Below the pieces are notes generated by a model. The model saw only the letters and a program-made list of their open reading frames with translations. It made no database searches and was not told where the DNA came from. Made by a program: the position numbers and the translations under genes. Positions 7,292 to 58,960 of a stretch of DNA of 64,000 bases are shown in pieces. How positions within the stretch are numbered: the first letter of the stretch is position 1; each line of letters starts with the position of its first letter. The stretch comes from Galerina marginata (lineage: Eukaryota > Basidiomycota > Agaricomycetes > Agaricales > Galerinaceae): contig JAECYW010000008.1 of NCBI GenBank assembly GCA_023014335.1, positions 3,100,001 through 3,164,000 of the forward strand. Reading direction: 5' to 3'.

Positions 7292-7870
7292 TCACGTCCA
7301 GGAAAGTGTTCCCCAAGGACTCGGACTAGATTTGGCAACAATGCGTTCCAAGTACCTCGGTGGGGCATGCCTTGGAAGTGCATCGGGAAGAATAGAAATA
7401 TGGATCGTTTCTGGAGGCATATTTGGACCCCTCACACATGGGACCCATGCGCTCTCAGAAATTCTTATACGGCGTGAATTATTCCCGACTTCCGTGAAGA
7501 ATGCGATGCGGTCAAATGTGAATTCGCTGAGTTCCTGAAATTCTCTCTGGGCAGTTTCGACAGCCTCCTAGAGGTAGAAAGTTCATTCAATTTCGAGGGA
7601 AGAGCCTAATGTGCGTACCTGATAGCTGGCTGGGGGTTTAATGTAGACAAGTGAGCTTTCGTACTGAAAGACCACTACACCCTGCAAAGGCGAGTGCGAA
7701 TAGCTAACGGAGTTACGAGCTCTCGTGGATGCCAACGGCGAGATAGCGGGGTAGAGAAGTCGGAACAGGAAAGCAATAGCGAAGATGGCGGGATAGACCG
7801 TGCTGTATACTATGAACAATAAGATTTTTGGTGTTGGTGGTGTGTTAGCTGCTCGGTAGATGGCATCCAT
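7292..7870 (-). CDS. Hypothetical membrane-anchored protein
   Basis: I do not recognise this family. Starting at the ATG at 7870, the first exon encodes a hydrophobic N-terminus (PKILLFIVYSTVYPAIFAIA and onward) that would be a signal anchor or one membrane helix. A stretch including VVVFQYESSLVYIKPPASYQ follows. A GTACGC...CTCTAG intron near 7570-7620 joins in frame to EAVETAQREFQELSEFTFDR and then NMPPETIHISILPDALPRHA, closing at a TGA at 7292-7294. The total is about 175 residues. The exon join and the amphipathic composition look genuine, but the 3' end may be wrong, since frames further left also stay open to about 7174. It is convergent with the FAD oxidase. Confidence 0.4.
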
Positions 7871-8214
7871 GATGTCGACTTGTTGTGGGAGGTTTGGAGA
7901 GTCGATTTATGGCCAATTTGGCGTAAGACAATTTAGGAGGTCTACATAATAAGATTGCATCTGAAACGCTATTCTAGTAGCCCACGAATGCACTCCCACT
8001 AATCTCAGACAGCCATTGGAAAGGAGGTTGTATCACGCAAGAGTCCGCAGGACCCCTCTGTGAACTTCATGAGTTATATCACTAGTTCACTTGTCAATCT
8101 ATCGATACAGCAAATTGTCGGATTTCCATGTTGAATGACAAGCTGAATCCACTTGAAAGCTGTCGTTCTCTTACTATATTATCCTGTTAGGGGGTTAGGG
8201 AATCTAGAATAGAC

Positions 8215-8420
8215 ACATCAGGCCTACCAAGCGTCCGAAGCCCTCGAAGCTCGGGAAGCGCATCGAGCAGTGCCACTGTCCCATTTTACGTCGCACGGAA
8301 GGGTAAGAGTGTAAGCTTGTGGACCGTAGGTGTCTAAAGACAGGCTGTGCTAGTGATGTCGATGCTGTTTAATCTAATAGAGCCTCGGGTAGCTCGGGCA
8401 AGATGTCACTGCTACATTGA
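8215..8420 (+). repeat. Dispersed repeat family, copy 1
   Basis: Shares ordered blocks with 55025-55260: ATCAGGCCTACC, then AAGCTCGGGAAGCGC, TCGAGCAGTGC, GTCGCAC, TAATCTAAT and an AGCTCGG block. Spacing is similar, with small indels. A more diverged inverted copy lies near 31080-31215. It has no coding capacity and looks like a small non-autonomous element. Confidence 0.6.
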
Positions 8421-8949
8421 GGGCGAAACTAGACGGCAGAATTAATGGAAACGGCAGCGGTGGGGGATTAAGAATAACAATTATTTCGCGCCTGTGATAT
8501 ACTGTGAGGGGTCCCCTCTGTCTACGCCCGAAAACCCCAATATTACGTCCGGTATCAAACCGCATGGTTCGTAAATTCGGCTCACATTCGATAGGTGTGG
8601 GCCAACTAAGACTTAACTGAGTTTGAAATTGATATAGTTCACGTGGAGGTGCAGTCACATGACCATCTCTCTGCGTCAATTCTGTCGTGTTGGAGCATTC
8701 CTGAATGCAAGACACGAGTATTCACAAATTCTAATCACCCAAATGAATCATAATTTAGTTAAATGCTGTCTGCCAAAAAATGGGAATTTTTGAAAGAATC
8801 TGTGAGCCACCAGTAGAGAATTTCTGAGAATTTTGTGCACCTAATTTATCACTTGATATGTCAACAACGGCTCCGATATTTAAGAAGAGAAATTTTCAAG
8901 AGTACTTGGGAGTACTGAGTATGACATCGAGACTTCTTAAAATGAGCAG

Positions 8950-9205
8950 CTGCGCGCGAAGCGCGCCCGGAAAAAAAAGGTTACACCCGTGTTTTGACCA
9001 TTTCACCAGAGACAAGAATTTTTTTAAATCAGAACAAAGGCTTTATATTTAATTTTAAAAGCAGGGAAACAGAAGTTCACAAGATCCACTTTTTAAGGAA
9101 GCAAAAACATTGATAGAGGCGCGAAGCGCGAGAGAAAAATCGTGCATATTTGATACATTTTACCATGCTGACCAAGTTTATCAGTCTCTGCGCGCGAAGC
9201 GCGCC
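8950..9205. repeat. Three copies of a GCGCGAAGCGCG palindrome
   Basis: The palindromic core GCGCGCGAAGCGCGC occurs at 8952-8966 and 9190-9204. A shorter form, GCGCGAAGCGCG, lies at 9119-9130. The first and third are followed by CCGGAAAAAA or CCGCAAAAAA. These GC islands sit in otherwise AT-rich DNA, so they are likely remnants of a small transposable element or a hairpin-forming repeat. Confidence 0.55.
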
Positions 9206-10105
9206 CGCAAAAAATGTCCTATTTTGTGTCCCGTATTCCCGAGTCCTCGCAAGGGGATTCTCAAATTCTTAGAGATTTAATTTGATGTGGGTGGTCTTAA
9301 TTAATTATTCTCTCTTCCTCTCTTCCTATTTAATTTATTTAATTTTATTTAATATTCGGCCCCACCACACCTATATAATGCGAGCCGTAAATTCTTATTT
9401 CATATATCTTTCCATTTTCGTACGCGTTCACGATGCGCCACATCGTCGATCATTTCTGAAACATTTCCCTCGTTTGATGACCGACTTTTCCCTTCCTACC
9501 ACCCATTTCGAAGGTATTTTCCTCCCATTTCTTCATTCCTCTGCCTAGTTGTTTCTTTTTCACCTTGTTTCATCAAATTTCCATTTCCCCATTTCGATCT
9601 CTACGTAGTCCTTAAATACTGGAACTCATGTAGTAGATCTTTAGTGGAATTCGAGTATTCTTCTCACCCCATCGTTGTTAGCACCTCGCGGCTCGGTTTC
9701 TACGATAGAAACGTCGCCTGGCATCGTTCTGGATCGCTCCCCGTCGTCTCGCTCTCGTCTCTCGCACCGAAAATTGTTTATTATCATTTTATCTACTAAC
9801 TATCACCCACCTTCCTTAGGATCCCCTCGAACCACCACGCAAACGGAGTTTGCGCCCCACTTCGTTTCCACGAAGTATTTCGAACTCACGCACTCTTGTG
9901 CATCTTCAATACGTCCTAGAAAAACGAAAGGAAGGGGAGGAAAAGATCACGCTAAAATTTGTACGATACAATCGAAAATATGGATAGAAAGAAGTAGCGC
10001 TGAATCTATCCGAAATAAAGAATATCAAGGCTTTCAACTCTATGCGAGTCGCCGAGCTGCAAACAGAATGGAATCAGTTAAGATATATTAACAACTGCTG
10101 GCGTT

Positions 10106-43715: not shown

Positions 43716-46460
43716 TCAAACCGCACAAATTGATAGTGGATGTTAACCGAGAAAAAGATAGATGAAGTGTCAGACTCTGAGTCCGGGAAGCGGCGAATCC
43801 AGAGGCGTAGATTATGATATTATTACTATTACTAATTTATAGTTGGAGCATTTTGCCGGCTACATCTGGAATTAGAGAAAATTGGTAGTAGTAATACGAG
43901 CAAGAAAGAAAATACAAAGGACGCCAGATCTACATTGCGGTGGTTATTTTGCGGCTATCTACAGGACGAATTTAAGTCGCTAGCCTAAGTGGAGAGTCTG
44001 AACTCTCGTGACCTAGAGAATCTGTAGAAGGGCAAACGTTGAACGAAGGACCTAGAATCGTTCAACGGCCAATTCTACGGAGAAAGGAAGACTCTGAGTG
44101 GGGAAAGCATCGCTTTGCAGACGGAGATAATGATTGGGAAATTGGTAAGCAACGGAAAGATAGCAACCCGATTTCAGATACTTCAGCAAACACAAACCGT
44201 GGCTTATAGTTTCATGCTGTCTGGTATCAATGGGAATAGCGACACCGCAGACATAGGAGACATTCAAGTCGTTACCCCACATCCACCCTCGCAGAGTCTG
44301 CCACCGTATTGTTTAATCGTGGCAGACTACACGTAGAATGTCAAACAACATTTGCACGTTGCATTGAAAGAGTCGTTCGACGACCGATTCTACGGAGAAA
44401 GCAACGGCGGGTCAGACTCTGAGAAGGGAAGCAGCGACTTGAGGGACAGATTATGGAATAAGAGACCTTAATGCGCGTCGAGAACTGTCTCCGAGATTAG
44501 GCACGTCAGAGACGCATGCGCGGAGCTTTATCCGCAGGCATTTGGTGTCAGAAACCGCGGTACCAACTGAAGAGTGAAATGGACCCCAGTCGTTAGCCCA
44601 TTATTGGAGAGTCTGACCGAATAGGACCGAATTCCCGAAGCCCTTAAATTATCCATAGTCGGCGAGCAACGAATGATGAGGCGTGGATCGTTCGAGGTTG
44701 ACCAACACGGAAAGAAAGGAGCGGAGCGGTCAGACTCTGCGTATAGGAGGGGGCTTGAATTTTTAATCGTAGATCACGGAGCCTGCAGCGTGATGATGAA
44801 ATGGTTAAGGCATAGTCTGGAATGAGATGTTATAATAGACAGCACATGGCCGGGTAAGAAGAAAAATTCGCAGGCCCCACTTCACAGGCCCACGTCTACA
44901 TCGCTTGATCGATAAAAACTGAAAGATGAAGACGTACGGAAGTCGCTAGCCTGCAAGTGGAGTCTGACCGCTCGCCACTTTCAAAACCATTTTCCGTAGA
45001 CTGGCGAGCATCGACGATGTAATTCGATGCTAAGTAACACGGAAAAGAGAAAGAAGCAAAGTAATCAGACTAATCAGACTCTGAGTAGGGGAAGCAGTAG
45101 CTCGAACCGTAGATCAGGTAGGCCACAAATGGATGAGGAAGTTGTCAAAGGCATGCTTTAGAGTGAGAAATATAACTGAGTAATCCCAGCCGAAAGATGA
45201 TCGATGATTGATGAAGATGTATTCGAGTCCTAGCCCACAAGTAGAGAGTCTGACCGCATTCCAGCTCGACTGGATTACCGTCCAATCCGTAGACTGGCGG
45301 GCAATGAACTAATGTGCGGATAGTTCGGAGGTGACCAATACGGAGAGCTGAGCGGACGGGTCAGACTTTGAGCATGGGAACCAGTGGCTTGAACCGTAGA
45401 TCGGGAGATCGGGCAGGAGTGGTCAGACTCATAGCTCAAAGTCGAAAGGTTTCATCTGCAACGAGATATTAGATAGCAACAGTGTGTGTGGCAACGATGG
45501 TCATGGCTAAAGGACAAAGACATAGTCGAGTCGCTTGCCTACGCGTGGAAAGTCGCATTCCGATACATATCATATAGCATTCGTAGACTTCTGAGCGCCA
45601 ATCGATGTTCATTTGAGGCTAACCTAAGCGAAGGGGGTACCAGATATAGAGCAGACTTTAAGAATGGGAGGCGGAAGGGGAAGCGGCTCGTGGAGGGCAT
45701 AGGTCGCGGCGCTTTATAGAAATAGCGTCGTGGGGTCTGATCAACGGTCATCGAAGGCGTTAGATAATTCAGAGGATGCACGAATGAAGATGAATTTGAT
45801 GAGATGGATAGGGGATCGTTCATCGCACAGAGCTTTTGGCTTTGTAATCTCCATGTTGAGTTTGCATTTGTTTACATAGCTGTGCAGATAAGATAAGATA
45901 GCCGAGTAAATATAGACGAGGGGCTGGGGTTGAGAGCAGCATCAACTTTAACATCACTCGCACGGAAACACGACGCAGGGGTTGTGTGGATCACTCGGTT
46001 CTGCGATTTCTCTGCAAGAATCGAGGATCGAGAGCCTCCTACACCTCCTGGACCGGCCAAGATCATACGCCGGGTCTGAGTTTCAAGGACAGGACAGAAA
46101 TTAGAGGTGTAAGAAGACTCATGAAAGTAGCTATAAAAACAAAGACAGAGAAACGTAGGACTCACTAACAGAATCATGTCCAGTCTGTTTTCCGACTCGA
46201 TCTCCTGGATGAATATTACCAACATTGGCAATATTGACATCGATGTGATACGATACAAGCCATGCCCAAGCAACGTGCAGGAGATATGTCCACAAGCTCC
46301 GATATATGGTCCACGGAGTCACGTGACTAAAAGCTGACATTTGACTCTTTTCTAATACCATCGCAGGGAACTGAAGCCTACATATCGGGCTGGTGACGGC
46401 GCATAGGAAAGGGCGGATATGGAAAGGAAAGCGGCAAGGGCGATGCTTCATTGTCTTGAA
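43716..46460. repeat. Foldback-unit array A
   Basis: At least four full units with outer arms at about 43993-44098, 44608-44738, 44961-45082 and 45245-45370. Right-half remnants lie at 43771 and 44411. Each full unit carries an outer AGAGTCTGACC-like arm, a TCCGT...ACGGA pair and an inner stem. Inner stems: CGTTGAACGA (44037) with TCGTTCAACG (44058), GCATCGA (45008) with TCGATGC (45024), and GAACTA (45306) with TAGTTC (45321). The right flank (45720-45830) resembles the flanks of the other three arrays. Frames on either strand are inconsistent between units, so the array is not coding. Confidence 0.8.
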
Positions 46461-47354
46461 GCCTGAAACTGCTGCATTGACGAAGCAGTGGAACCGAACG
46501 AACCAAGTAATGGAATTGAAGAGGTGAAGCAGTCATTCGGGAGGACGAGGAAGATTGGTGATGGTGGGCCGCATTGACTGTTAGCCTGGGAATATGGGAA
46601 AGCCGGACACAGAAGGTGCATGGCCACCGGACTCCCATGTAAGCTTCTCGTCCGCCGGCTCCGTCGACAGTAGGTGTCAAAATTTTACTGTTTCAGGTTG
46701 AGTGACGGGAGCAGGTTGGCCGAACTCTCGGGGCTCGGCTCTCGAGGTTGTCAGCTTTCAGGTAGAAACTTGGTGTCAAGGAATATCGAAATGCCGGGTG
46801 TCCGCTGGCAGGGTAGGGCGGAAAAGTGCTCGAGCGCAGCAAGGAAAGTGTTATTGTCTGTGTTGAGAGAATGAAGCAGTGAGGTTAACATAGCGTTAAA
46901 CTTTAATTAAGATGCAGAGGAGTTCGAGATAATATGCGAAAGATACACGCACATGTATTAATACTTTCGCGAAAGTGGTGTGAAGCAATTGGATCGTGCC
47001 GCGTAATATTCTCCTACACACGAGTGCCAGTTATTGCTGAATATGTGAGGAAAATGTCCTTAATTAAGTATTGGATAGTATATGACACTTAATCTACACG
47101 CGGGATTGTGCTCTAGCGGTCAAGACTCGTAACTCGGTAAAGCTGAACAAAACTTGACAGTCTGGGTTTCCATAGTAGCTTGCCATATCGAACAGCGTAT
47201 CCCTACGAGACATTCCATATTCGGGTTTTGTTTTTCCTACGAGAACTTGTTCCTCCAATTAAAACTCCTCGTAGTAACAGTACCAGTTGTAGATGGACGT
47301 GTGGAAAAGCATGGGAGATAAGCACGAGCCGGAATGAAAGGAGCACCTTGACAG
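46461..47354. other. Intergenic after array A
   Basis: No gene seen. A CACGTGAC word lies at about 46320. The right end serves as promoter of the Y3-like gene. Confidence 0.35.
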
Positions 47355-47362
47355 TATTTAAA
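47355..47362 (+). promoter_or_regulatory. TATA-like box of the Y3-like gene
   Basis: TATTTAAA about 70 bp upstream of the ATG at 47428. Confidence 0.4.
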
Positions 47363-47427
47363 CCTCAGAACCGATTATACTCTCCTTCCAGATTCCCTTT
47401 TTCACCGCTTCATTGCAAACGCTGAAA

Positions 47428-48094
47428 ATGTTTACCGGAGGCACAGCTGTGAGTTACTACACACTGGACTTGTCTACCCAGTTAATGACTACAATTTATC
47501 AGGTTATTCTTGCGACTTTCTTCACAGTTCAGGTGGCCTTGGGTCAAATTGCTTGTACAAATATAGGCGCGCCGCTACTGACGGGCAAAAGTAACTGTTC
47601 CAGCTTAATCCCGGCTTACTGCACTCGTATTCAAGACTCGGGCACTACGGTAAAATCTTCTACATCTGCCTAGAAAATATTATCTTCGTAATAATTCCTC
47701 ACCTCATTCCATAGTTCAAAGGCGGTGATCAATTCTTCCGCTGTTTCTACAGCCCAGAGGCAAATTCGACTTGTACGTTTGTGGCTTCCGTTGCAAAGTG
47801 TGATCTATTGATGTAGAAGGTTCATTTTGTTCGTCCGACTTCACAGGCTACCTGGGTATCACAGGAAACACCGGACTATCTGTGGTCCAATCAGACAGTG
47901 CTACTTGTTCAACCTCTCTTTTTGGCGTTGCCGCGCAATGCCCCATGGTAGGAAATTTAGTCTAGAGTCTGAGGTGTTGTTCTGATATGCGATTATACTA
48001 GGGTGGGTCCGACAGTATAACGAATCTGGGCATCACGTATTCAATCACCGCTCGTTTTGGAGAATGCGGCTTGCAGATTGTTAACAAGCCATAA
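47428..48094 (+). CDS. Small secreted glycan-binding protein, Y3-like
   Basis: Five exons give about 130 residues. Exon 1 encodes MFTGGTA, and a GTGAGT...ATCAG intron joins VILATFFTVQVALGQIACTN, completing a signal peptide that ends near GQ. The mature part has NCSSLIPAYC, RCFYSPEANSTC, then CSTSLFGVAAQCPMGGSDSI and YSITARFGECGLQIV, ending at 48094. The RCF, CPMGG and GxC pattern fits the Y3 family of mushroom glycan-binding proteins, which bind LacdiNAc-type or other glycans and can act in defence. No catalytic motif is present. It lies between arrays A and B. The family assignment rests on remembered motif pattern, not on a search. Confidence 0.65.
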
Positions 48095-49760
48095 AATTTG
48101 TCGGGTACTACCCTTGTATAACAGGGTCTCTGGATTAAAGCATTTCACAATATTACCACATTAAAAACAGGAGAAAAATCGGAGACTTCCCAGAAGGTGT
48201 ATCTGGACAGAAGAGTAATTAGACTGTCAGTATTTCATCCATAACAAAATAAGCCTCTAGGCTAGCTGCTCTGCAATGAACGTAATTTTTCACCGCTACG
48301 TGCCGGAATCGGACAAATTCGAGTCGCTAGCCCACACTTGGAGAGTCCTACCGCATTCAAGGATTGTCCCCAAAATTATCCGTAGACTGGCGCGTCGAAC
48401 GATGCTCATTCGAAGCTAGCCAACACGGAGAAGGGGTCAGAAACGGTCAGACTCTGAGTACGGGAAGCAAGGACTTGACGCATAGATTATGATTGAGAGA
48501 AAAAGGCACACACTGGTGATACCCCGCGTCTATTTATCTGATAACCGCGGTATGGCAAGTGTCGAACGAAAAACTTGTGGATTGTTCGAACTTGGCCAAC
48601 ACGGAAACCGAGGCAAATGGGTCGAACTCTGAGTGCGGGAAGCATGGCTTGCAATATACTCGAGTAGAAAGGGTAGAGCGACTACTATGTGGGCAAATCT
48701 GAAGAACTTTCTTTGAATATTAGACGTCATATACTTCAGCGAGAATGAAACACATACGAACTAAAGCCTACAAATGGCGAATCCGGCCACGGGATACGGA
48801 TGAATACTGAAGGTTTCGTCTGTCAAATGGAATGAGACATCTGATCGGCTGCACTGCTGCATTTCCAGTCTGATAATCCATACAAGTTGAAGGATGAAGA
48901 CGCATTCAATCGATAGCCCACGTTTGGAGAGTTTGACCGCATCTCTACTATGCGCGCAGGCGAAGATCCAGAGGGGAGGTGAAGTGAGGCAGCGGGTAGA
49001 ATGGCTTGCTAGGAATTAACGGAGATATGCCTCATCCAAGTCGCCGGTCCACACTGGGAAAGTCTGATAACGTTGCCATAACTGTTATCCATAGACAGGC
49101 GGGCGTCAAACGATGTCCATTCAAGGCGATCACGCACGGAAAACGCAGTGAGTAGGGGCAGACTCTGAGCATGGAAGTCGGTATGTTGGTCATGATGCAT
49201 GATGCTTTACTGCGTGAGGATTGAAGTTGATCGATATCTTCGATTAGACAGTAAGATCGAGAAATAATAATGAGTTGTGATTACTCACCTGCGTCGAGGT
49301 GTATTGACGAAAATTCTGATCAAAGGCGATCAAAGGCTCAGAGATCAGAGCATGCACAAAGGGCACGAAGCCTATAAGGTGAAGTGGATAATTCGTCAAT
49401 CGTCTATCGCAAGGTCCTCGAGAATGAAAGTGTGAACCTGAGCCGCTCATCATTCCCCTCTTCTCCAAATCTGTAGAAGAGGATTCAGGATCGAATCTCC
49501 TCTATCCCTGGCACCACAAGTTTAGGCAGCGCGAGCGGCGAGGTAAGCGTGGCTTTACTACAGTAAGCAGGAGAATCGAGATTCAGAACAAGGTCAACCC
49601 AGTGGAAGCATAAACGAACGTGGATGGGAAGCAGATGGGATGTGTGGAGAAGGTTGGATAAACCGACGGATTGAAGGGTGGGAACGCGGAGGATAAGTGC
49701 CACGTGATCGCGACCGCACAGTACTTAAACGCAAAGAAGCCTTTGCACGGTTTATTACCT
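48095..49760. repeat. Foldback-unit array B
   Basis: Two recognisable units have outer arms at about 48342-48455 and 49058-49168. Partial ones lie near 48540-48640 and 48927. The first keeps TCCGTAGACTGG, CCAACACGGA and an inner TCGAACGATGCTCATTCGA foldback. The right flank (49240-49500) shows a minus-strand exon-like segment related to that of array C: acceptor TATAG, about 70 bp, donor GTGAGTAATC. Confidence 0.7.
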
Positions 49761-50539
49761 GACCTCAACGATTAATAATGCGAAGCCGTACTAGTAGGTG
49801 TGGGACTAAAATACTTTGACTATGAGTGAGGTTAATGCTAGAAATCTGCTCGAAAGCGCCATCGTAAAGATCGGACAGCAGACTGGAACGAAATTATTTC
49901 TCCAGTTTAAAGCCTGGTAGACAGATAGAAAGGACTTGGTAACCAACAAGCAAACGAAACAAGCAAGGCTACAAATTTTACGAGACGCAAATCAGGTGGA
50001 TTTGGCCGTAATCTCGCGTGGAGTCTGGAAAATAACAGCTGCTTTCGGAACGCTGGCGTGTTTCAAATAGTGGTTCACTGTCGATGGTCCTGTTGATTCT
50101 CGTCAAGATTAAATTACAAATCTTGAATCATTTTGACTTAAGGCAGCAGTAGATCGTTGTAGGCCACGCTTTCGTCTAATAACGAGATAGATTTGTTGTA
50201 TGTTGTCGTTAAATAGTACACTTTTTTACTTGTAAGGCAAAGATTTAATCCTCTAGTTACCTCGTCGTCCACCCCAACAGAAAGAGCAACGGCCGCATTC
50301 CCTCCTAGATCACTCGCTGTGACTCGCATAAAAATTATTACATTCGTGGTACGCCATTGTCAGTGAGAAATGAAAAATTCGATATGGCGGACTTAACTAG
50401 ACCCGCATTGGAAACGAAGTAAAAAAGAATACACTTCGGAACAGAATAATTTCTGGAAATGTCTGCGGTTCTTGATACGAGCCGTCAATAACCTGGTTCG
50501 CGGTGTATATTCTTAACATAGCTCTTACCCTATGCTGCT
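49761..50539. other. Intergenic
   Basis: No supported gene. A minus-strand frame at 50138-50329 shows no motif. Confidence 0.35.
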
Positions 50540-52264
50540 CTATCCTTTGATTGTAATGAACAGGTGTTGATGATCTTCGGTCATCAGTTCCGATTGCGGA
50601 CTATTAGTCGAGCGCACTTTACGGAGCTCGCCAGGACGGATAGTAGCGGAGACGTCATGGCCAGAGTCCAACGTTGTGGAGGCCCGATCAACCTCGTCAT
50701 AGTGGGATTGAAACGACGCCCAATTGGGTGGTTGGGCGAGGTATTTCACGAAATCCAGGAACGATTCATGCTGCCACGTCGATGGACTTGTGACGATGCA
50801 CCACAACTCTGGGCTCTCAAGTTTAAGAGACCCTTGCAACTTGGTAGCCAGGATGACGATCGATTGGCAGCCTGGTTTCGCTTCAAAACCTAACAGGAGT
50901 ACCGCAACGAGAAATTTATTTTTGAATTTCTCAAGAAGGGGGAGACGGCGAAGTGGCCGATCGAACTCAATGATTGCGGGGTTATAATATGAATCCTCCA
51001 CTCTGTACGATCTTCCGGGGGGTGAGTTGATAGAAAGGTGCGCAGCATATCGGGACTTAGAAGGCGGCGGTGTGGGGGAAAAATACCTGGCCGAAACATA
51101 GATGTCCTGCTGTTTGACGCTGCGGGGGTCAGCTGCGTAGCGAGCTTCATTAACAAGCAGGCGAGAATAGCGCTCCGTCACTTTGGGTTCGCTTGAAAAT
51201 GGAAGTGTCAAATAAATGGCGATCCGCTTAGACCGGCTCCCAACTTCGCAGTTGAGCATGGCCTGGTAAATATTGGTCATCCCGATTTTCACCAATGGCA
51301 GCTTTATTTGAAGGCCATTGTTGGTCATTGAGAAAGGCGATCGAGCTGATCGTCCGTCGCGGTCCCCGTATGGCGTCACGTTTTTCGAATGACGGAAATC
51401 TGCTGGCGAGCTGGCTAGGAGACCACACGTAGGGGCCTTTGCGTCTTCCAGAAACCTCTGAACCTTGTAGTAATCTGCCGGTTTGTCGTCGAACCAATCT
51501 TCTGGTGAATGAGGTTGGAAACTCGGAGGCATCCACGCGAAAATGGTTTCGTCAGACGTCTCCTTCATGATCTCTAGTTGTAAGCGGATGAATGCCCTCC
51601 AGCCCTCTCCATATAATGTTGGCATATTCACGTCGAATATCCCCATCAGAGAGTACGCCGCGTCTTCAACCCTTGTCGTTTGCCTCTTCGCCGCCCATGA
51701 CATACGCAATGCCACACAAAAATGGCTCGCCGGTGTTCTCGACATCAGTACCTCGTATGGAATCCCTGTTATTTCCTTGATCTCGTTCCACAGTGAGGAC
51801 CGCGTCCCGATGTCGACCCAGTCGCTACTGTAGAACACGAGCAGTGGAGGAGCAATCAATTCCTGTAACGTCCAGCCTCGAGTGAACCACCGGCTTCGCG
51901 CGAATTTGGAATTCTCGGCCTGAGGGTCATCGCTGGACGGCACATCTGACAAATACGCATAACAGATCCTTGCGGCTTTGTACCATTGATACATCGAGTT
52001 GATCGCCTCCGAGAGCTCGGCGCTGCTTGTTTTGTCAATGCAGCATGTATCAATCCAAACGTACTTGAAGCCGCACTGGCTTGCCAGCTCGCAGGTTTTC
52101 GTGATTTTGGCATATCCCGCCATGGATTTCGCAGCAGGTGTCGAGATTTGCTGGAAAGAAACCTCCCCTTCACCCCATGTGTGCGAAAGGGCAGCGTAGG
52201 TAGGACAACTTCTTTCGTCCATGAATTCTTCGACTTTCAGGGTTCGCACATTGAGGAGACGCAT
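50540..52264 (-). CDS. HET-domain protein
   Basis: A single-exon gene of 574 residues starting at the ATG at 52264 (MRLLNVRTLKVEEF). The HET domain occupies about residues 20-140, with ALSHTWGEGEVSF, then FKYVWIDTCCIDKTSSAELS, the hallmark of heterokaryon-incompatibility proteins, and SRWFTRGWTLQELIAPPLLV. Downstream, RVEDAAYSLMGIFDVNMPTL then YGEGWRAFIRLQLEIMKETS is the conserved segment after HET in basidiomycete members. There is no NACHT or repeat domain, so it is the short form. HET proteins trigger cell death on non-self recognition in ascomycetes; the role of basidiomycete copies is mostly unproven. An in-frame non-ATG extension upstream was not used. It sits between repeat arrays B and C. 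Confidence 0.9.
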   Translation of the reverse strand: MRLLNVRTLKVEEFMDERSCPTYAALSHTWGEGEVSFQQISTPAAKSMAGYAKITKTCELASQCGFKYVWIDTCCIDKTSSAELSEAINSMYQWYKAARICYAYLSDVPSSDDPQAENSKFARSRWFTRGWTLQELIAPPLLVFYSSDWVDIGTRSSLWNEIKEITGIPYEVLMSRTPASHFCVALRMSWAAKRQTTRVEDAAYSLMGIFDVNMPTLYGEGWRAFIRLQLEIMKETSDETIFAWMPPSFQPHSPEDWFDDKPADYYKVQRFLEDAKAPTCGLLASSPADFRHSKNVTPYGDRDGRSARSPFSMTNNGLQIKLPLVKIGMTNIYQAMLNCEVGSRSKRIAIYLTLPFSSEPKVTERYSRLLVNEARYAADPRSVKQQDIYVSARYFSPTPPPSKSRYAAHLSINSPPGRSYRVEDSYYNPAIIEFDRPLRRLPLLEKFKNKFLVAVLLLGFEAKPGCQSIVILATKLQGSLKLESPELWCIVTSPSTWQHESFLDFVKYLAQPPNWASFQSHYDEVDRASTTLDSGHDVSATIRPGELRKVRSTNSPQSELMTEDHQHLFITIKG

Positions 52265-52620
52265 TGTGTAGTGGGCGGTGTGAGTGGTTGTAAGCAAAGA
52301 CCGGGATGAAATAATCAACGAGATTGATCTGTCGATAAGGTCGGGCTTTAGACGCAACAGTCAAAAACGGAAACGAAGTCACGAAACCTTGGTCTGACAT
52401 CGAAATATTGACAGACAGACTTTCCGAGGCAGGTGGTATTTTGACGGATTTGTTAATTCGGTTCCATCGGCTTTCGGGAATGTAACTGAGAATGGGAATC
52501 TGTGAAATAATACGCTTCAGTAAGAATATAACACGGCTCCCGCCTGCACACCCACGCCCTCTGAGAGACGTGGTATTAGCTGAAAAATCATCGATGAAGT
52601 TTTGAAGACCCATTTAAGTT
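52265..52620. other. HET gene promoter region
   Basis: No independent gene seen. Confidence 0.35.
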
Positions 52621-54900
52621 GCTAACCTACAAGTAGCGTCTGACCGCAAATAACGAGATCTTACTAATGATTCGTAGACTAGGGCGCAACGAACGATCAA
52701 CATGTGGATCATCATTCGAGGTGGAGTTCAATATGAAGAAGAGAGCGGACGGGTTAGACTCCGAGCGCAGACAGCAGTGGTTGGACTTGAGCTGTAGATC
52801 AGCAGCTTGCAGAGTGATCATGGACCGATCGACGCCTAAATGCTTCGTCAGGAATGTGATATTAGATACCACATATTTTCGGAAGATAAAAACACACCTC
52901 CCGGGAGTCCTGGCTTCACCTCTATGCTGTCTGATCATCGATTAATAACCACAGTACTAGTTGAAAGATGAAGAATGGATGCATATTCGAGGCGCTAGCC
53001 CACAAGCTGAGAGTCTGACTCCCTTCCGACGCCCAAAGAGAGCATCGGTAGATTGGCAAGTGTCGAACGAAGAACGCGTGGATCGTTTGCACTTGGCCAA
53101 TATACGGAGACTGGCGCGAATGGGTCAGACTCTGAGTGCGGGAAGCAATGGCTTGAAATATAGATTGGGCAGAGCGAAGCTGAAGTGATCAAATCAGAAG
53201 GGCTTCGTTTGGATATTACGGATCATATACTTCAGCAAGAATGAAACACGTGAAAACTAGACCTCCTCTCTGGACGACGGCCTCCACAGCGACAATTTGA
53301 TAATTGAGGGATGAAAAAAAAAAAAGGTGAAGACAAATTCCAGTCGCAAGCCCACAAGTAGGGAGTCTGACTAAGTGCCCCAGACAGCATCCGTGGATTA
53401 GCGAGCAGCGAACCGCAACTGCATAGATCGTTCGAGGGTCACTTTCATGGAGAACTTAGCTGACGTGCCAGACTTCGAATATGGGAAGCAGTGGCCTGGA
53501 TCATAGATCGGGTAGATCAGAGCGATGACGGAGTTGTCGAAGCCGAAAGGCTGCGCATATAGAATGAGACATTAGACAGGATGTACCACAGCGAGAATAA
53601 AACACAAGGGGACCATCCCTCATAGTATACGCCTGATTACACAGTCTGGTGTCGTATCAGCTGAAGGATGAAGGAGTATCGAGTCACTAGCCCAGAAGTA
53701 GAGTCCGACCGCATCGAAGATACAAGCCAAGTATCCGTGATTTGCTCGCCTTCAAACAATTAACATGCGGAACGTTCGAGGGTGAGCAACACGGAAGATA
53801 GCTCGATGGAGTCAGACTCTGAGTATGGGACGCAGTGGCTTGCACCATAGATGTTGGCGGAGCAACGATGGCGGGGTCAAAGCCTAACGACTTTGATTTT
53901 TCGTTTGGAACCAAACATTAGACAGGATCTAGGACAACAAGGATAAAACGAAAGCGGACCATACCTCCCAGCTGTAACCCAGTTTACACAGCATGGTAAC
54001 CGCACCAGGTGAAAGATGAAGACATAACGAGTCGCCAACACAAAAGCAAAAGTCGAGTCTGATCGCATTCTTACTATAACCACAACATATCCGTAGACTG
54101 GCAAGCATCAAACGATAAGTGCGTGGATCGTTCGAGGTAAACCAGTAGGAGAATAGAGCAGAGGGCGATCAGACTCGGAGAACAGGCTGGCTGGCTCAGC
54201 TCGGAGTGAAGGCGAGGTTGAGGGTTACAGCAGGTAGGAACCGCTAGGATGTCATCGACAAATGCCTTATCCAACCATGTCGCCAGTCCACAGTTGATCG
54301 TAGATGGATCAGCGTCCAACAATGTTCATTTGCGGCTAACAAACACAAAGAAAATACCAATTGGGCCAGAGTCTGAGCAAGGAGTGGGGCGTTGGACAAA
54401 TCGTTTTACGGCCTTGCGATCAAAGGCTAGAGTGTCTGTGAGTAGACCGTAAGATATAATAATGGATTGGGATTACTCACTTGCACGCCGTAAATGTTGA
54501 CAAAGATCCTTATCGATGGCGATGGAAGGATCAGAGACCATAACCTGTACGACGAGGAGCATAGGGAACCTTCAATCGTCCATCGTAGGTCCTCGAGAAT
54601 GAAAGTACGAACCTGACCCTCTCTTCCCACCTGGGAAGTGTCAGGCGGCAAATGGCCAAAAAGCTGGGGAATTCGGGGATGAGTGGGCTCGGTCAAGGAG
54701 CGCGGAGCAACCGGAATCGGAGTTGTGGCGGCACTAATAATGGATTTACCCGGGACCTGTCGGGGCCGGTAGCTGACAAATATTCCAAAATGTTGTATCC
54801 CGTGATCGCAGCACGCAGCACGCAGCACGTCGGACGTGCCTCGCCCAAGCCTCACCCCGCCTGCTCTCTCGAGCGCGATCGTCTATTGGTCTGTACTCGT
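52621..54900. repeat. Foldback-unit array C
   Basis: The most regular array. Units have outer arms at 52634-52761, 53010-53133, 53361-53475, 53700-53820 and 54055-54178, giving a 339-376 bp period, plus a diverged unit near 54280-54375. Between hairpins each unit has a shared stretch with TGAAAGATGAAG, ATCGAGTC, CACAAGTAG and, on the minus strand, CTGGGAGGTATGGT. The right flank near 54460-54640 has a minus-strand exon-like segment (acceptor GTACAG, donor GTGAGTAATC). Confidence 0.8.
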
Positions 54901-56280
54901 CAGTATTCATTAAATAACGTCAACTTATAGTCTTAGAAATGTAATTTTTGATCGGTCGTACACATGTACAGATTCAATCATTTTTAAAAAAAATGTACGC
55001 AAGACCTACGCACCCGTTGGGATATGCCTATCAGGCCTACCCTACCAGTCCAAGTCTGGGAAAGCTCGGGAAGCGCGTCGAGCAGTGCGCTATCGCGTCG
55101 CACGTAGTGGCAAGAACCAAGCAAAGGTTGGATTCTGCAAAGGGAAACGCGCTGGCACACAAACCATGCACAGCCGCTGATGGATCTAGCTATCTAATCT
55201 AATCCACACTCGGGCAGCTCGGCCCAGAGCTCACGTCCCATGTACTCTACAGTTACAGATCTATGCCGCTGCTAGTATTGGACTCAAACTCTCTTTAGGA
55301 CAAATTGAGCTAGTATAGCGCGGAGAAATTATTTAATACTAGTCGTGTATAACCTGCTGAACTTTTTTTCGATTCTCGGAGAAGTAAAAATAGAAAGGCA
55401 CTGGGCAACGCGACAAGTTCAATAATATTAACAGAACGAGTCTTATAAATAGAACTGGCAAGGCATTCACGGCAGACAGTGACTTGCACCCCCTTTATGT
55501 AAGCGCCCGAGCGCTCAAATCAGCCGAGGTGAAGTCGAGATCCGCCGGATAAATTTTAATATTGCCTGGGCCTACGTTTGTTTATTTCGCGGCTGAAGAA
55601 ATGCCGTCGTGGGTCGAAACTTGATAGTAATATCTTTGTCAATACGTTAAGCAACATCCCTACGTTTTGGTGAAGCCCTTAAATTCCCAATGTTCTAATA
55701 ATAATTTCCATTCCTTCGTCAAACAAACCCGCTGTTTCATCCACTGAAAATTATGGCCAATGACGTTAACCCCCATCCGTCAATGACACCTCCATCTCGA
55801 CGGTCGACCATTACATTCTCTTTAGGCCATTTTCAGCCCTCAATATTTCTTCTCTATTCTTCTTGAGCGGAACGGAGACTTCCTACCTTTGTATTTTTAG
55901 ACCAGGTATTACAGTCCGGATTCAGAGGTGGTGCCAACGTAAATTCAGGCCTGGGACGGCTGAGTATTACGGATTATGAAGTGGGTTAATAATGGACACG
56001 GCGTTCTGATACTCATCCCCAGCTTCCGAGGATCGGAGGCAGGGCAAGAGTGTTTCGACTCGAATTCTGCAGTGGGTCAACAAGTTTAAATGTTTTCCCA
56101 CTTCAAGTTTCCACCCCCGGCGTTCCATTATTTAAATGCAATCGACAATGCCGACCCGACACCAACGCAACGTCGCAAACTTGAATTCTACATCATCATC
56201 CTGATTCATAACAGTTTCCAACTGGATCTACTTTGGATGTATGACACCACAAATACACCACCTGCGTCCCTGGTAGTTAG
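54901..56280. other. Intergenic with dispersed-repeat copy
   Basis: No gene seen. Contains the dispersed repeat at about 55025-55260. The remainder is unremarkable. Confidence 0.4.
55025..55260 (+). repeat. Dispersed repeat family, copy 2
   Basis: Direct-orientation relative of 8215-8420 (shared ATCAGGCCTACC, AAGCTCGGGAAGCGC, TCGAGCAGTGC, TAATCTAAT, CTCGGGCAGCTCGG). Confidence 0.6.
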
Positions 56281-56287
56281 TATAAAG
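56281..56287 (+). promoter_or_regulatory. TATA box of the cysteine-rich protein gene
   Basis: TATAAAG about 75 bp upstream of the ATG at 56357. Confidence 0.45.
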
Positions 56288-56356
56288 CCCGACCTTTTTC
56301 TTTCTTAGTTTCCCCACAACCGCCAAGCGTTCGAGCAACATCTCCAAGCGTACGCC

Positions 56357-56849
56357 ATGTTTATTTCCAAGACCACTTTCCCTGTCCTCGCAATTTCTCT
56401 TCTTTCCCTTCTTGGAAGGGTGAGTTCGACTACAGTTCCGATCGACGCCAGGGCAGGTGTGTATTTTCTGTTCATCGCCCGTCTCATAATTTGCAATCTA
56501 AATCGTTTCTCAGCCCAGGCTGACGATCCCGTTAACTGCACTGGTGTGATCAATTGTCCGCTTATACCAGCCGTCTGCCCTGTTGGATATCACCGTACGC
56601 CCTCATTCATTTCGCGTCGTCTGTTTCTGAATAGAAAATATTAGTTGGAACTGAAACCGGGGCGTGTTGTGAATCCTGCATCAAGTGCAACCCATTGACT
56701 TGTCCAAGAATCCCAGTGATCTGCGGTCCCGGTTTCAAGGGTATGTAACATTCGTTCCACAAACAATATCTCCAGCTCTAACACTTCGGATTTCAACAGC
56801 TGGGGTAGCACCCAATGCGTGTTGCACAACCTGCATACCCGCAGCGTAA
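56357..56849 (+). CDS. Small secreted cysteine-rich protein with duplicated motif
   Basis: Four exons give about 100 residues: a signal peptide (MFISKTTFPVLAISLLSLLG, then RVSSTTVPIDARA), then two copies of one cysteine motif. Copy 1 reads CTGVINCPLIPAVCPVGYH, then GTETGACCESC. Copy 2 reads CNPLTCPRIPVICGPGFKAG, then APNACCTTC. The shared pattern is CPxIPxxCxxG, a spacer, then ACCxxC. Exon joins at the CACC intron (acceptor AATATTAG) and the AAGG intron keep the frame. I do not recognise the family. Its size, signal and cysteines fit small secreted effectors or antimicrobial peptides of mushrooms. It is flanked by array C (about 1.5 kb left) and array D. Confidence 0.7.
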
Positions 56850-57159
56850 TCTATTGAGACGTAGCGTAATAGTGCTCGTTCCTACCTTCGAATTTTTACA
56901 ATCTTCCCTAGATATTATGTACTTACAGATTCCTCCTAGTTGGTAGGTGTACTCATTCGATGGTCATATATTCTCTCAGAGCAGAGTAAATCAGCGTGAA
57001 TTATCGTCTGAACTTCTTTTCGTTTCTCCTCAGGCATGCAATGAACAACCTCAACAGTCAAACGATACTAACATTAACGCATGTTTTCTGTGCAATAACG
57101 GGCCGATTAGCCACTCCGGAAAACTGGACATGGTAGCAAGCTGTGTTTCCCGTGCATCG

Positions 57160-58960
57160 CACCTCATTTTGCTGCCGTGCGTGCGGGAATCGATTCGAGT
57201 CGTCGCCCGCACTTGGAGAGTCTGACCGCCTTCGCCTTCAAATTCAAATTCTCCGAAAGCTGACAAGCATCGAATGATGTTTATTCGAAGCTTACCAACG
57301 CGGAGGAGTGAAGGAAGTGGAGGGGTCAGACTCTGAGTGCGAGAAGCAGTGACTTGAACCTTAGATCAGGCAGATAGAAATATCTTGAAACGAAAGAAAC
57401 ATACCTCCCAGCGACACGCCTTTATTTGTCTGATCGATTTACCGGCTGAAGGATAACAGATGACAGAATCAAGTCGTTAGCCCGCAAGTGGAGAGTCTGA
57501 CCACCTTCGACACTTTGTTCTCCATGCGCCATCCGTAGACTGGCAAGCGTCGAATGATAATAATTCGAAGCTCACCAACACGGAGAAGAGAAGGAAGCAG
57601 ACGGGTCAGACTCTCAGCGCGGGAAGCGGCGAATTTGAACATGACTCGTAAATTGGGCAGGCGTAGAGGGATGGATGGAGTCGACGAAGCCTAAATACTT
57701 AGTCTAGAATGATATATTAGATAGCATATAACCTTAGAAAGCAATAACCATATCTTCCAGTCGTACGCCTCCACTGACTGTTGAATATTCAAGTCGCGAG
57801 CCCACAGTGGAGAGTATGACCGCCATCTAGCTTCAACGAGGATCCGTAGACTGGCGAGCTTCGACGATGAAGATTCGAAACTAACCAACACGGAGAAGAT
57901 AACGGAATAGAAGACGGTCAAACTCTGTATATCGGAAGCGGTGACTTGCACTTGAACCATCTAGATCAGCCAGTGATGATGGAATGGTTGGAGCCTAGAG
58001 GATTGGTTTGGAATTAGATAGCATATACCTGAGTGAGAATGAAACACAAGCTCACCATACCTTACTAACTGAAGGATAAAGACGTATCGAGTCGCCAGCC
58101 CACAAGTACCGGAGAATCTGACCGCAATCCGGCACGAAAATACACCCTGAGCATCCGTAGCTTGGCCAGCAACGAACAGTAAGCGCGTAAATTGTTCGAG
58201 GGCGACCAAAAATGAAAGGAGAGCGCACTGGTCAGACTCGGAATACAGGATGTATCACGAAATTGGGCAGTAGTGATGGAGTGATCAAAGGGCCGAAGGC
58301 CCAGATTGGTAAACTGCAGTACCAGCTGGAGAATGAAAACAATATTCCATTCGCAACCTCACAAGCAGAGAGTCTAACCGCATTCCGGCCCCCAAGGTGA
58401 ACATCAGCATCCGTAGAATGGCGAGCAACAAACGATAAACGCGCGGATCGTTCGAGGCTAACCAGCACGGAGAAGAAGGCGGACGGCCAGACTCTGAGCA
58501 TAGGAGGTGGAAGGGGGAATGGGGGAGTGTGGGCGTAGTTTACGTCCTGGGATTCGAAGGCTATCTCTGCGATTTGACCATAAAATTTAAAATCCAGATC
58601 TAATAAAGAATTGAACAAATCGCTCACCGGTACGTCAGACTTATAGCTGCATGGACGACCATTCTGATCAAAGGCGATCGAAGATGTAAGAAAACAAGGA
58701 AGATGCACGACCAGTGCGAATGAAGTTGAGAAGATGAAGCTGATAAGTTGGATCAAAGATCGTCGAAGACGACGTCGAGGTGGTGGACCAGGATATAATG
58801 GGTTGAGGGGTGCACGTGCCGGGAGAGCGGAGTTGGGGTTGCACAGCGGATACGGGGTTCTGTAGGCGGGAGGCGCTTAGCTACACGCACAAAGAATTGA
58901 AGAGGATATCGAGGCGCGGGCAGCCTGATGCAACTTCCATCTACCCTATTATCTTTCGAT
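57160..58960. repeat. Foldback-unit array D
   Basis: Five units with outer arms at 57217-57334, 57492-57614, 57811-57926, 58113-58240 and 58369-58495, at a 256-319 bp period. The second has the inner palindrome CGAATGATAATAATTCG. The third pairs TTCGA (57860) with TCGAA (57875), and the fifth pairs AACGAT with ATCGTT. The right flank (58590-58760) is homologous to 45720-45830 and 49300-49340, and includes ATTCTGATCAAAGGCGATC, which is identical to part of flank B. Confidence 0.8.

Follow-up and report, generated by a model that had tools for sequence, protein, structure and literature searches.

The window (the whole 64-kb stretch of DNA analysed) contains four clusters of a repeat unit of ~340 nt, built around a long hairpin, in the neighbourhood of several proposed genes. 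Among these neighbours, the HET gene named in the initial annotation was recognised by Pfam (E 2.1e-14), and the three-WSC gene was recognised in part, with one WSC piece above the curated cut-off (E 5.4e-7) and the other two (2.6e-5 and 1.7e-4) below it. ORFs scanned at the places labelled Y3-like, cysteine-rich and acyltransferase gave no convincing Pfam match. The clusters were traced by the covariance-model (CM) search that the annotation had recommended, which yielded 22 array-sense unit matches in the window, 20 of them at E < 0.01 (weak matches: 48904-49018, E 0.13; 43735-43805, E 0.32). Matches were distributed over cluster A (43735-45686, 7 matches), cluster B (48317-49193, 4 matches), cluster C (52612-54399, 6 matches) and cluster D (57193-58522, 5 matches). 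Four clusters of a single orientation had been predicted, comprising at least 15 units; the model recovered this arrangement over 43.7-58.5 kb with more units than claimed. The clusters do not fill the intergenic DNA, as had been stated, since 45.9-47.3 and 54.7-56.3 kb are free of model matches. Opposite-strand matches (22 of the 68 listed by the model), often at the same places as array-sense ones, arise because the unit is a foldback. All window matches to the consensus motifs of the arms and middle fell inside 43-59.5 kb (11/11, 14/14 and 16/16), as did 15 of 16 for the inner-right motif; a fifth motif of 15 bases was unspecific (10/22). An array of the foldback unit was absent from the output of Tandem Repeats Finder, presumably owing to unit divergence. 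The features are given below as positions in the 64-kb window, where (-) marks the putative transcript strand.

43735-43805 (-): array A, weak unit fragment (right arm) at distal end; CM E 0.32
43970-44122 (-): array A, foldback unit; CM E 8.4e-25
44262-44446 (-): array A, foldback unit; CM E 1.6e-12
44583-44762 (-): array A, foldback unit; CM E 3e-31
44936-45109 (-): array A, foldback unit; CM E 8.6e-29
45221-45396 (-): array A, foldback unit; CM E 8.4e-40
45524-45686 (-): array A, leader-proximal unit (type-1 clade); CM E 3.8e-25, clade of leader-proximal units
48317-48482 (-): array B, foldback unit; CM E 1.6e-39
48492-48657 (-): array B, foldback unit with eroded left arm; CM E 1.7e-12
48904-49018 (-): array B, partial, weak unit; CM E 0.13
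49034-49193 (-): array B, leader-proximal unit (type-1 clade); CM E 9.9e-28, tree
49283-49288 (-): array B, leader splice-donor-like hexamer GTGAGT; flank alignment, anchor search
49289-49510 (-): array B, putative leader exon / conserved upstream flank, outer limit approximate; array-flank alignment, 68% DNA match to array C flank
52612-52789 (-): array C, foldback unit; CM E 5.4e-30
52985-53160 (-): array C, foldback unit; CM E 5.9e-39
53337-53503 (-): array C, foldback unit; CM E 2.6e-36
53678-53847 (-): array C, foldback unit; CM E 1.5e-33, fold z -7.5
54026-54204 (-): array C, foldback unit; CM E 1.1e-33
54273-54399 (-): array C, leader-proximal unit, shortened (type-1 clade); CM E 3.3e-4, tree
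54475-54480 (-): array C, leader splice-donor-like hexamer GTGAGT; flank alignment, anchor search
54481-54640 (-): array C, putative leader exon / conserved upstream flank, outer limit approximate; array-flank alignment, DNA match to array B flank
57193-57361 (-): array D, foldback unit; CM E 1.6e-33, fold z -6.9
57467-57641 (-): array D, foldback unit; CM E 1.1e-36
57787-57953 (-): array D, foldback unit; CM E 1.4e-34
58086-58264 (-): array D, foldback unit with weak fold (z -0.8); CM E 7.3e-33
58344-58522 (-): array D, leader-proximal unit, outside type-1 clade; CM E 5.5e-40, tree
58622-58627 (-): array D, leader splice-donor-like hexamer GTGAGC; flank alignment, anchor search
58628-58790 (-): array D, putative leader exon / conserved upstream flank, outer limit approximate; array-flank alignment, 74% DNA match to C42 3.215-Mb leader

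The foldback itself was confirmed, but its proposed size of ~105-135 bp was too small: pairing continues outward beyond AGAGTCTGACC/GGTCAGACTCT as a looser helix, and most whole foldbacks therefore measure about 150-185 nt. Pairing involves 80.5% of cells across 17 units of the window, compared with 25.8-44.1% when partners were slid by 1-3 columns. Dealing letters within columns still gave 78.2% pairing (2/500 reached 80.5%), a small gap that reflects the conservation of the columns. Fold energy exceeded that of shuffled sequences, a control the annotation had called for, with a mean z of -2.75 on the plus strand and -2.84 on the minus strand (43 of 46 units kept, from the window, C7, C30 and C42 3.2-Mb arrays). 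On the plus strand, z was below -2.2 in 24 of the 43 units and reached -7.5 in the strongest, while the other 19 were individually unremarkable. The units are thus long inverted repeats capable of forming dsRNA, as hpRNAs are, albeit with imperfect arms.

The four window clusters belong to a family with at least 11 arrays, most of which lie near contig ends. In this genome the covariance model has so far given 59 unit matches in these arrays (7, 4, 6, 5, 7, 6, 11, 4, 2, 3 and 4 per array), and 10 of the 11 known arrays are no more than 100 kb from a contig end; 11 arrays is a minimum and the placement is biased, because the model was run on far less than 1 Mb of the 69-Mb genome, in stretches picked for their proximity to known arrays, HMG copies or contig ends. 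DNA and pattern searches of the whole genome found arrays at C42 right, C30, C7 and C28 only, the DNA searches missing three at the C42 left end. Five arrays adjoin copies or fragments of one HMG-box gene, several of which are truncated or carry stops, and telomere repeats occur at three array-bearing contig ends. The annotation's statement that no named element has this plan was upheld against Rfam (no matches in 64 kb at gathering scores, and none in 1.8 kb when E values up to 1 were allowed). No tRNA or tmRNA was detected, and searches of open-licence PMC text brought up no paper describing such an array.

Units within the arrays are ordered. In a tree of 55 of the 59 matches, the leader-proximal units of 9 of the 11 arrays formed one clade that excluded all other units (support 0.80), and most units did not group by array, which argues against a homogenised tandem satellite. 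In a flank alignment of seven arrays, built without reference to splice sites, a leader hexamer GTRAGY was aligned in all six arrays not gapped at that place, its G, T, A and G being invariant. Nine arrays have a leader that can be recognised, and an anchor search, which newly added donor-bearing leaders at C28 and the C42 left end, placed a splice-donor hexamer in eight of them (8.7% for a donor-type hexamer in the same span at random places); columns of the donor-anchored lineup are invariant partly by construction, and the unanchored alignment is preferred. The retained donor and the distinct leader-proximal unit imply that whole ordered arrays were copied, and the arrays look like ordered noncoding gene-like elements. 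The leader acceptor stays putative, because the YAG found 45-79 nt after every leader donor also occurs at 74% of random places.

Further intron-like signals were observed within the units. Read on the minus strand, the unit consensus holds GTATGT, CTAAT and CATTCCAG in order (such a string occurs in 75/2000 shuffles). Intron-like strings numbered 10 in sense over 20.4 kb vs 2.85 expected (two share an acceptor and some lie in leaders), and 4 in antisense vs 2.7 expected. Most of the putative unit introns are broken. A wobble test for the RNA strand was weakly in favour of minus (115 vs 86, p 0.048, cells not independent). Read on this strand, the arrays look directional and gene-like.

We assessed compensatory change in 42 of the 46 array-sense matches (those over 130 letters), with a relatedness-matched control in which partners were exchanged between stem pairs of like type. 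In a sequence-only alignment, double changes that stayed Watson-Crick occupied 32 cells vs 16.2 ± 3.3 in the control (0/500 as high). This excess was 19 vs 7.4 ± 2.0 for window units (0/500 as high) and 13 vs 9.0 ± 2.5 outside the window (41/500), suggesting that compensation is clear in the window copies and weak elsewhere. Transitions from G-C to A-U accounted for 21 of the 32 double changes, for which strand-symmetric C-to-T mutation could be a partial source. Larger values from the covariance-model alignment (47 vs 13.1 ± 2.9; held-out, 27 vs 6.8 ± 2.1) were set aside because that alignment was fitted to the structure.

The best explanation, to which we give a probability of roughly 0.38, is that the arrays are subtelomeric spliced noncoding genes giving tandem-hairpin RNA, similar to Drosophila hpRNA clusters. 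The four clusters would be members of a mostly subtelomeric noncoding gene family on the minus strand, each gene beginning with a leader exon, followed by a short GT-AG intron and a run of ~340-nt hairpin-bearing units, whose spacers probably once held further short introns. Folded, the primary RNA would form a string of hairpins, a tandem hpRNA-like precursor that Dicer would cut into small RNAs. This was most likely a past role, and some copies may still work.

About as likely is that the arrays are a decaying subtelomeric duplicon: a once-transcribed tandem gene, copied between chromosome ends (in some cases with HMG-box genes) and now drifting, its hairpins an inherited shape with no present function. 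Across six unit pairs from three paralogous arrays, 32 single changes broke pairs vs 15 that kept them, by our own estimate about what is expected without constraint. Moreover, hairpins are no better conserved than spacers (75%-89% identity for four hairpin pairs; 93% and 81% for two spacer pairs), as judged by whole-segment identities, a paired/unpaired split being biased when the structure is chosen from the same two sequences. The broken unit introns, weak held-out compensation, defective HMG copies and concentration of known arrays towards contig ends are also in keeping with decay. However, drift sits poorly with the donor hexamer retained in most leaders, the compensation among window units well above the relatedness-matched control, and the very strong folds that persist in many units.

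A transposable-element relic, namely an array of foldback or MITE-like elements, is quite improbable, although the arms are inverted and several copies occur over several contigs. Of 14 genomic occurrences of the spaced-arm pattern, 13 are inside arrays (control, 2); the arm 11-mer was counted 60 times, 28 of them within arrays, and the 32 outside match the 32 of its control. There is therefore no sign of dispersed single copies, and a dispersed MITE is not supported by these counts, which could miss diverged single copies. The ordering of units behind a common leader likewise counts against a relic.

Less probable still is an element acting as DNA, in which cruciform-forming tandem units would function in subtelomeric recombination, replication or chromatin, and template switching rather than RNA would keep the arms matched. 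Consistent with this, Watson-Crick double changes were in excess and G-U intermediates were not (73 vs 83.2 in the control; C-A, 86 vs 99.1), and telomere repeats cap three array-bearing contig ends. Nevertheless, the oriented leader with its retained donor and the position-specific first unit suggest a transcribed gene.

Two paralogous arrays are without a coding signature, unlike the adjoining HMG gene that served as positive control. Leader substitutions fell 20/18/15 by phase with 8 of 12 indels out of frame, compared with 17/5/5 and 0 of 3 for the HMG gene. Seven array stretches showed no consistent codon-phase bias and had 23 of 34 indels out of frame, one short spacer being phase-skewed (6/1/1 of 8 substitutions). 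A repeated-exon protein-coding gene, intact or decayed, is the least probable alternative: it has in its favour the minus-strand intron-like strings, a stop-to-stop reading frame of 206 codons in the leader region of the C30 array, and a first half of the unit that in several units can be read in one common frame, but it failed the phase and indel test, the unit consensus has stops in every frame, and the 214-aa ORF lying across the array D leader found no homologous protein among 812 candidates.

For the tandem-hairpin RNA reading, candidate machinery is encoded in the genome (Dicer_dimer at 3 places; 31 Piwi exon matches). No candidate target emerged: three DNA queries gave no match outside the arrays, in searches that were not very sensitive and would miss a single siRNA-length target, and k-mers in common with three HMG copies stood at chance level. 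On these k-mers the HMG gene is not supported as the source of the arms either. Transcription, splicing and dicing are inferred, as would be any silencing role and its target. We consider it doubtful, though worth stating, that the family corresponds, in a fungus, to the tandem hpRNA clusters, with subtelomeric, spliced noncoding genes giving strings of Dicer-ready hairpins, that it spread partly with HMG-box transcription-factor genes and that it may control such fast-evolving subtelomeric genes or be in conflict with them. If transcribed and diced, the arrays would constitute an hpRNA-cluster system in a mushroom, partly adjoining duplicating HMG-box genes, and an endogenous hairpin RNA role in fungal subtelomeres would become directly testable. 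Should the arrays prove silent, a noncoding tandem family that is ordered, has a common leader and was copied from one chromosome end to another still represents an uncommon architecture, which gene finders could mistake for failed gene models or unnamed repeats.

Foldback and MITE transposons are inverted-repeat units at several places, as are the arrays described here, but the latter lack signs of dispersed single copies and have a common leader and order. With subtelomeric satellites and subtelomeric lncRNAs the arrays share tandem units near chromosome ends that are copied between ends, and they differ in having few diverged units, a common leader and a distinct first unit, without homogenisation. 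Fungal milRNA loci are hairpin precursors in fungi with Dicer and Argonaute, as the arrays would be, whereas the loci here are ordered arrays of long hairpins. In the Drosophila clusters hp-CG4068 and the Nmy/Tmy/tHMG hpRNAs (PMC10317233), tandem hairpins derive from a common transcript, vary in copy number and multiply locally. Compared with these, the arrays here are fungal, mostly subtelomeric, imperfect in their arms, and without target complementarity found; they resemble the Drosophila clusters in a predicted common transcript, in variable tandem hairpin number (2-11 matches per array), in local multiplication and, coincidentally or not, in having HMG-box genes nearby.

Galerina marginata carries ordered, oriented arrays of hairpin units, lacking a coding signature and standing behind a leader with a retained GTRAGY donor motif. 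The initial annotation had described a recurrent foldback-bearing unit, and a covariance model built from 17 window units scored 22 matches in array sense inside the window, which spans C42:3100001-3164000, and a further 24 in three loci outside its training (seven on contig C7, six on C30 and 11 in the 3.2-Mb array of C42). The alignment rests on conserved arms (left roughly TCGAGTC..AGCCCACAAGTGGAGAGTCTGACC, right GGTCAGACTCTGAGTGCGGGAAGCAGTGGCTTGA) that enclose the inner pairs TCCGT/ACGGA, TGG/CCA and CGAACGAT/ATCGTTCG. Scanning another 24 stretches, of which three had been scanned already, added 13 units in stretches L007, L012 and L013; one extra row in L019 was an overlap with L007, and the remaining stretches held no match better than E 0.78. 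In total, the 69.3-Mb genome (43 contigs) yielded 59 matches in 11 arrays, 57 of them at E < 0.01. The sole spaced-arm pattern match outside arrays (C24:573374-573495) has an apparently unrelated inner sequence.

Arm complementarity, a feature of the initial description, exceeded that of shuffled controls. Across 43 units, fold energy lay below that of dinucleotide shuffles (mean z -2.75 on the plus strand, with 24 units below -2.2, and -2.84 on the minus), and the two halves of a unit aligned to each other with a mean z of 3.1. Among the 17 window units, 80.5% of cells paired, versus 25.8-44.1% with slid partners and 78.2% when letters were dealt out within columns; both sides had changed at 17 of 35 pairs (9.4 ± 2.2 shuffled). 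Compensation was assessed on a structure-free alignment, against a relatedness-preserving control in which stem pairs of equal consensus type exchange partners. Both sides had changed yet remained Watson-Crick in 32 cells, versus 16.2 ± 3.3 in the control (0 of 500 as high). Window units supplied most of these (19 vs 7.4 ± 2.0), the other loci contributing 13 (vs 9.0 ± 2.5; 41 of 500 as high). As 21 of the 32 were G-C to A-U, strand-symmetric C-to-T mutation could help to yield such double changes, a contribution that the partner-swap control, which preserves column composition, does not fully remove.

Protein coding was rejected on substitutions per phase (highest to lowest) and out-of-frame indels between the C30 and C42 3.2-Mb arrays, with the adjoining HMG-box gene as contrast:
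Leader: 20/18/15; 8 of 12 indels out of frame
Type-1 (leader-proximal) unit: 16/12/11; 5 of 6
Three other unit pairs: 12/9/9, 8/6/4 and 16/14/9; 6 of 12
First spacer: 6/1/1; zero indels
Second spacer: 13/11/10; 4 of 4
Adjoining HMG-box gene: 17/5/5; 0 of 3
A 214-aa ORF across the array D leader had no homologous protein among 812 candidates.

Read on the minus strand, the leader lies upstream and is common to arrays. When seven array flanks were aligned without regard to splice sites, GTRAGY coincided in all six flanks with letters at that column, with no variation at its G, T, A and G; the array A flank is gapped there. A 25-base leader anchor, searched against every fetched stretch, recovered nine leaders and was not found for the two remaining arrays. 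GTRAGY lay 26-54 nt from the anchor start in eight of the nine, including the newly added leaders of C28 and the C42 left end, and was absent from that span in array A; the chance in an equal span at a random place is 8.7%. YAG followed 45-79 nt after the donor in 8/8 leaders and was also found at 74% of random places, so only the donor counts as splice evidence. A second intron-like string (GTATGT..CTAAT..CATTCCAG, 49 nt) occupies the spacer of the unit consensus, which was drawn from 40 full units, and arose in 75 of 2,000 shuffles. Over 20.4 kb of array DNA, such strings numbered 10 in sense (2.85 expected) and four in antisense (2.7 expected), and most unit introns are broken. Support is fairly good for the leader donor and only moderate for the putative unit introns.

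A tree of 55 units grouped nine leader-proximal units into one clade that included no other unit (support 0.80); these came from arrays A, B, C, C7, C30, C42 3.2-Mb, C28 and two at the C42 left end; those of D and the third left-end array fell outside. The C30 and C42 3.2-Mb arrays aligned over 2,278 nt at 74.8%, spanning the leader and the HMG-box gene end. Together these imply that whole arrays were copied, with at least the first position kept.

Ten of the 11 arrays lie less than 100 kb from a contig end:
Window arrays: 69-84 kb from the C42 right end
C42 3.2-Mb array: 13-16 kb from the C42 right end
C42 left-end arrays: 28-42 kb from the end
C28 array: 10 kb from the contig end
C30 array: 73 kb from the contig end
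C7 array: 237 kb from the contig end (the exception)
The C42 left-end arrays came from stretches fetched around HMG-box copies there; arrays found by genome-wide search lay within 100 kb of an end on three of four contigs. The right ends of C42, C30 and C7 terminate in TTAGGG arrays, which are absent from the C42 left end and both C28 ends. Telomere matches on C1, C2, C7, C10, C13, C22, C30, C34, C41 and C42 were all forward TTAGGG (71, with 0 reverse) and, on the contigs of known length (C1, C7, C30 and C42), sat at the right end, a bias that may stem from assembly or trimming. The final 10 kb leading up to the C42 telomere (C42:3217750-3227749) hold several short tandem repeats with periods of 32, 65, 36 and 17 nt, among others.

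An HMG-box copy or fragment lies within ~1.5 kb of five arrays (C7, C30, and C42 at 3.216 Mb, 24-27 kb and 39.7 kb), four of which are downstream of the copy in the same direction. Members of this HMG-box gene family lie at:
C7:1603462-1605585 (7340-9589 of locus L001)
C42:24475-26612
C1:4311814-4331114 (copies)
C30:360294-361037
C42:3216430-3216840
No array was found in the 30 kb surrounding two C1 copies, and the other six arrays, the window's four included, had no equally near match among the HMG copies listed. Some copies are open and others truncated or with stops, several being near contig ends; the three proteins closest to the family are paralogs from Galerina marginata CBS 339.88, the closest to one gene at 85% identity. 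Arm k-mers matched the HMG-box gene at chance level. Other neighbours include an avidin-family gene near the C7 array (L001:1195-1710, plus strand, Pfam E 3e-22) and, in the stretch separating arrays B and C, a HET-domain open frame of 606 aa (window 50540-52360, minus strand).

Whether the arrays are functional or a decaying duplicon is about an even question. Between the C30 and C42 3.2-Mb arrays, hairpins were 75-89% identical (four pairs) versus 93% and 81% for spacers; across three arrays, six unit pairs showed 32 single changes that disrupted a model pair and 15 that preserved it, and wobble asymmetry between strands was weak. These observations speak against function and fit pairing that was formerly important and is now loose or lost in some copies. 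Under the functional reading, polymerase II would transcribe the arrays on the minus strand, and the transcript would be spliced and form a multi-hairpin RNA for Dicer to cut; the machinery exists, since Dicer_dimer was matched at three genomic places and Piwi exons gave 31 matches. The nearest working model is the tandem hairpin RNA (hpRNA) clusters of flies, whose copy number varies according to PMC10317233 (20 tandem hp-CG4068 copies in D. melanogaster, nine in D. simulans). The same paper describes D. simulans hpRNAs that repeatedly target testis HMG-box genes; given the chance-level k-mer matches between arms and the HMG-box gene, the HMG-box neighbourhood of the arrays is suggestive only.
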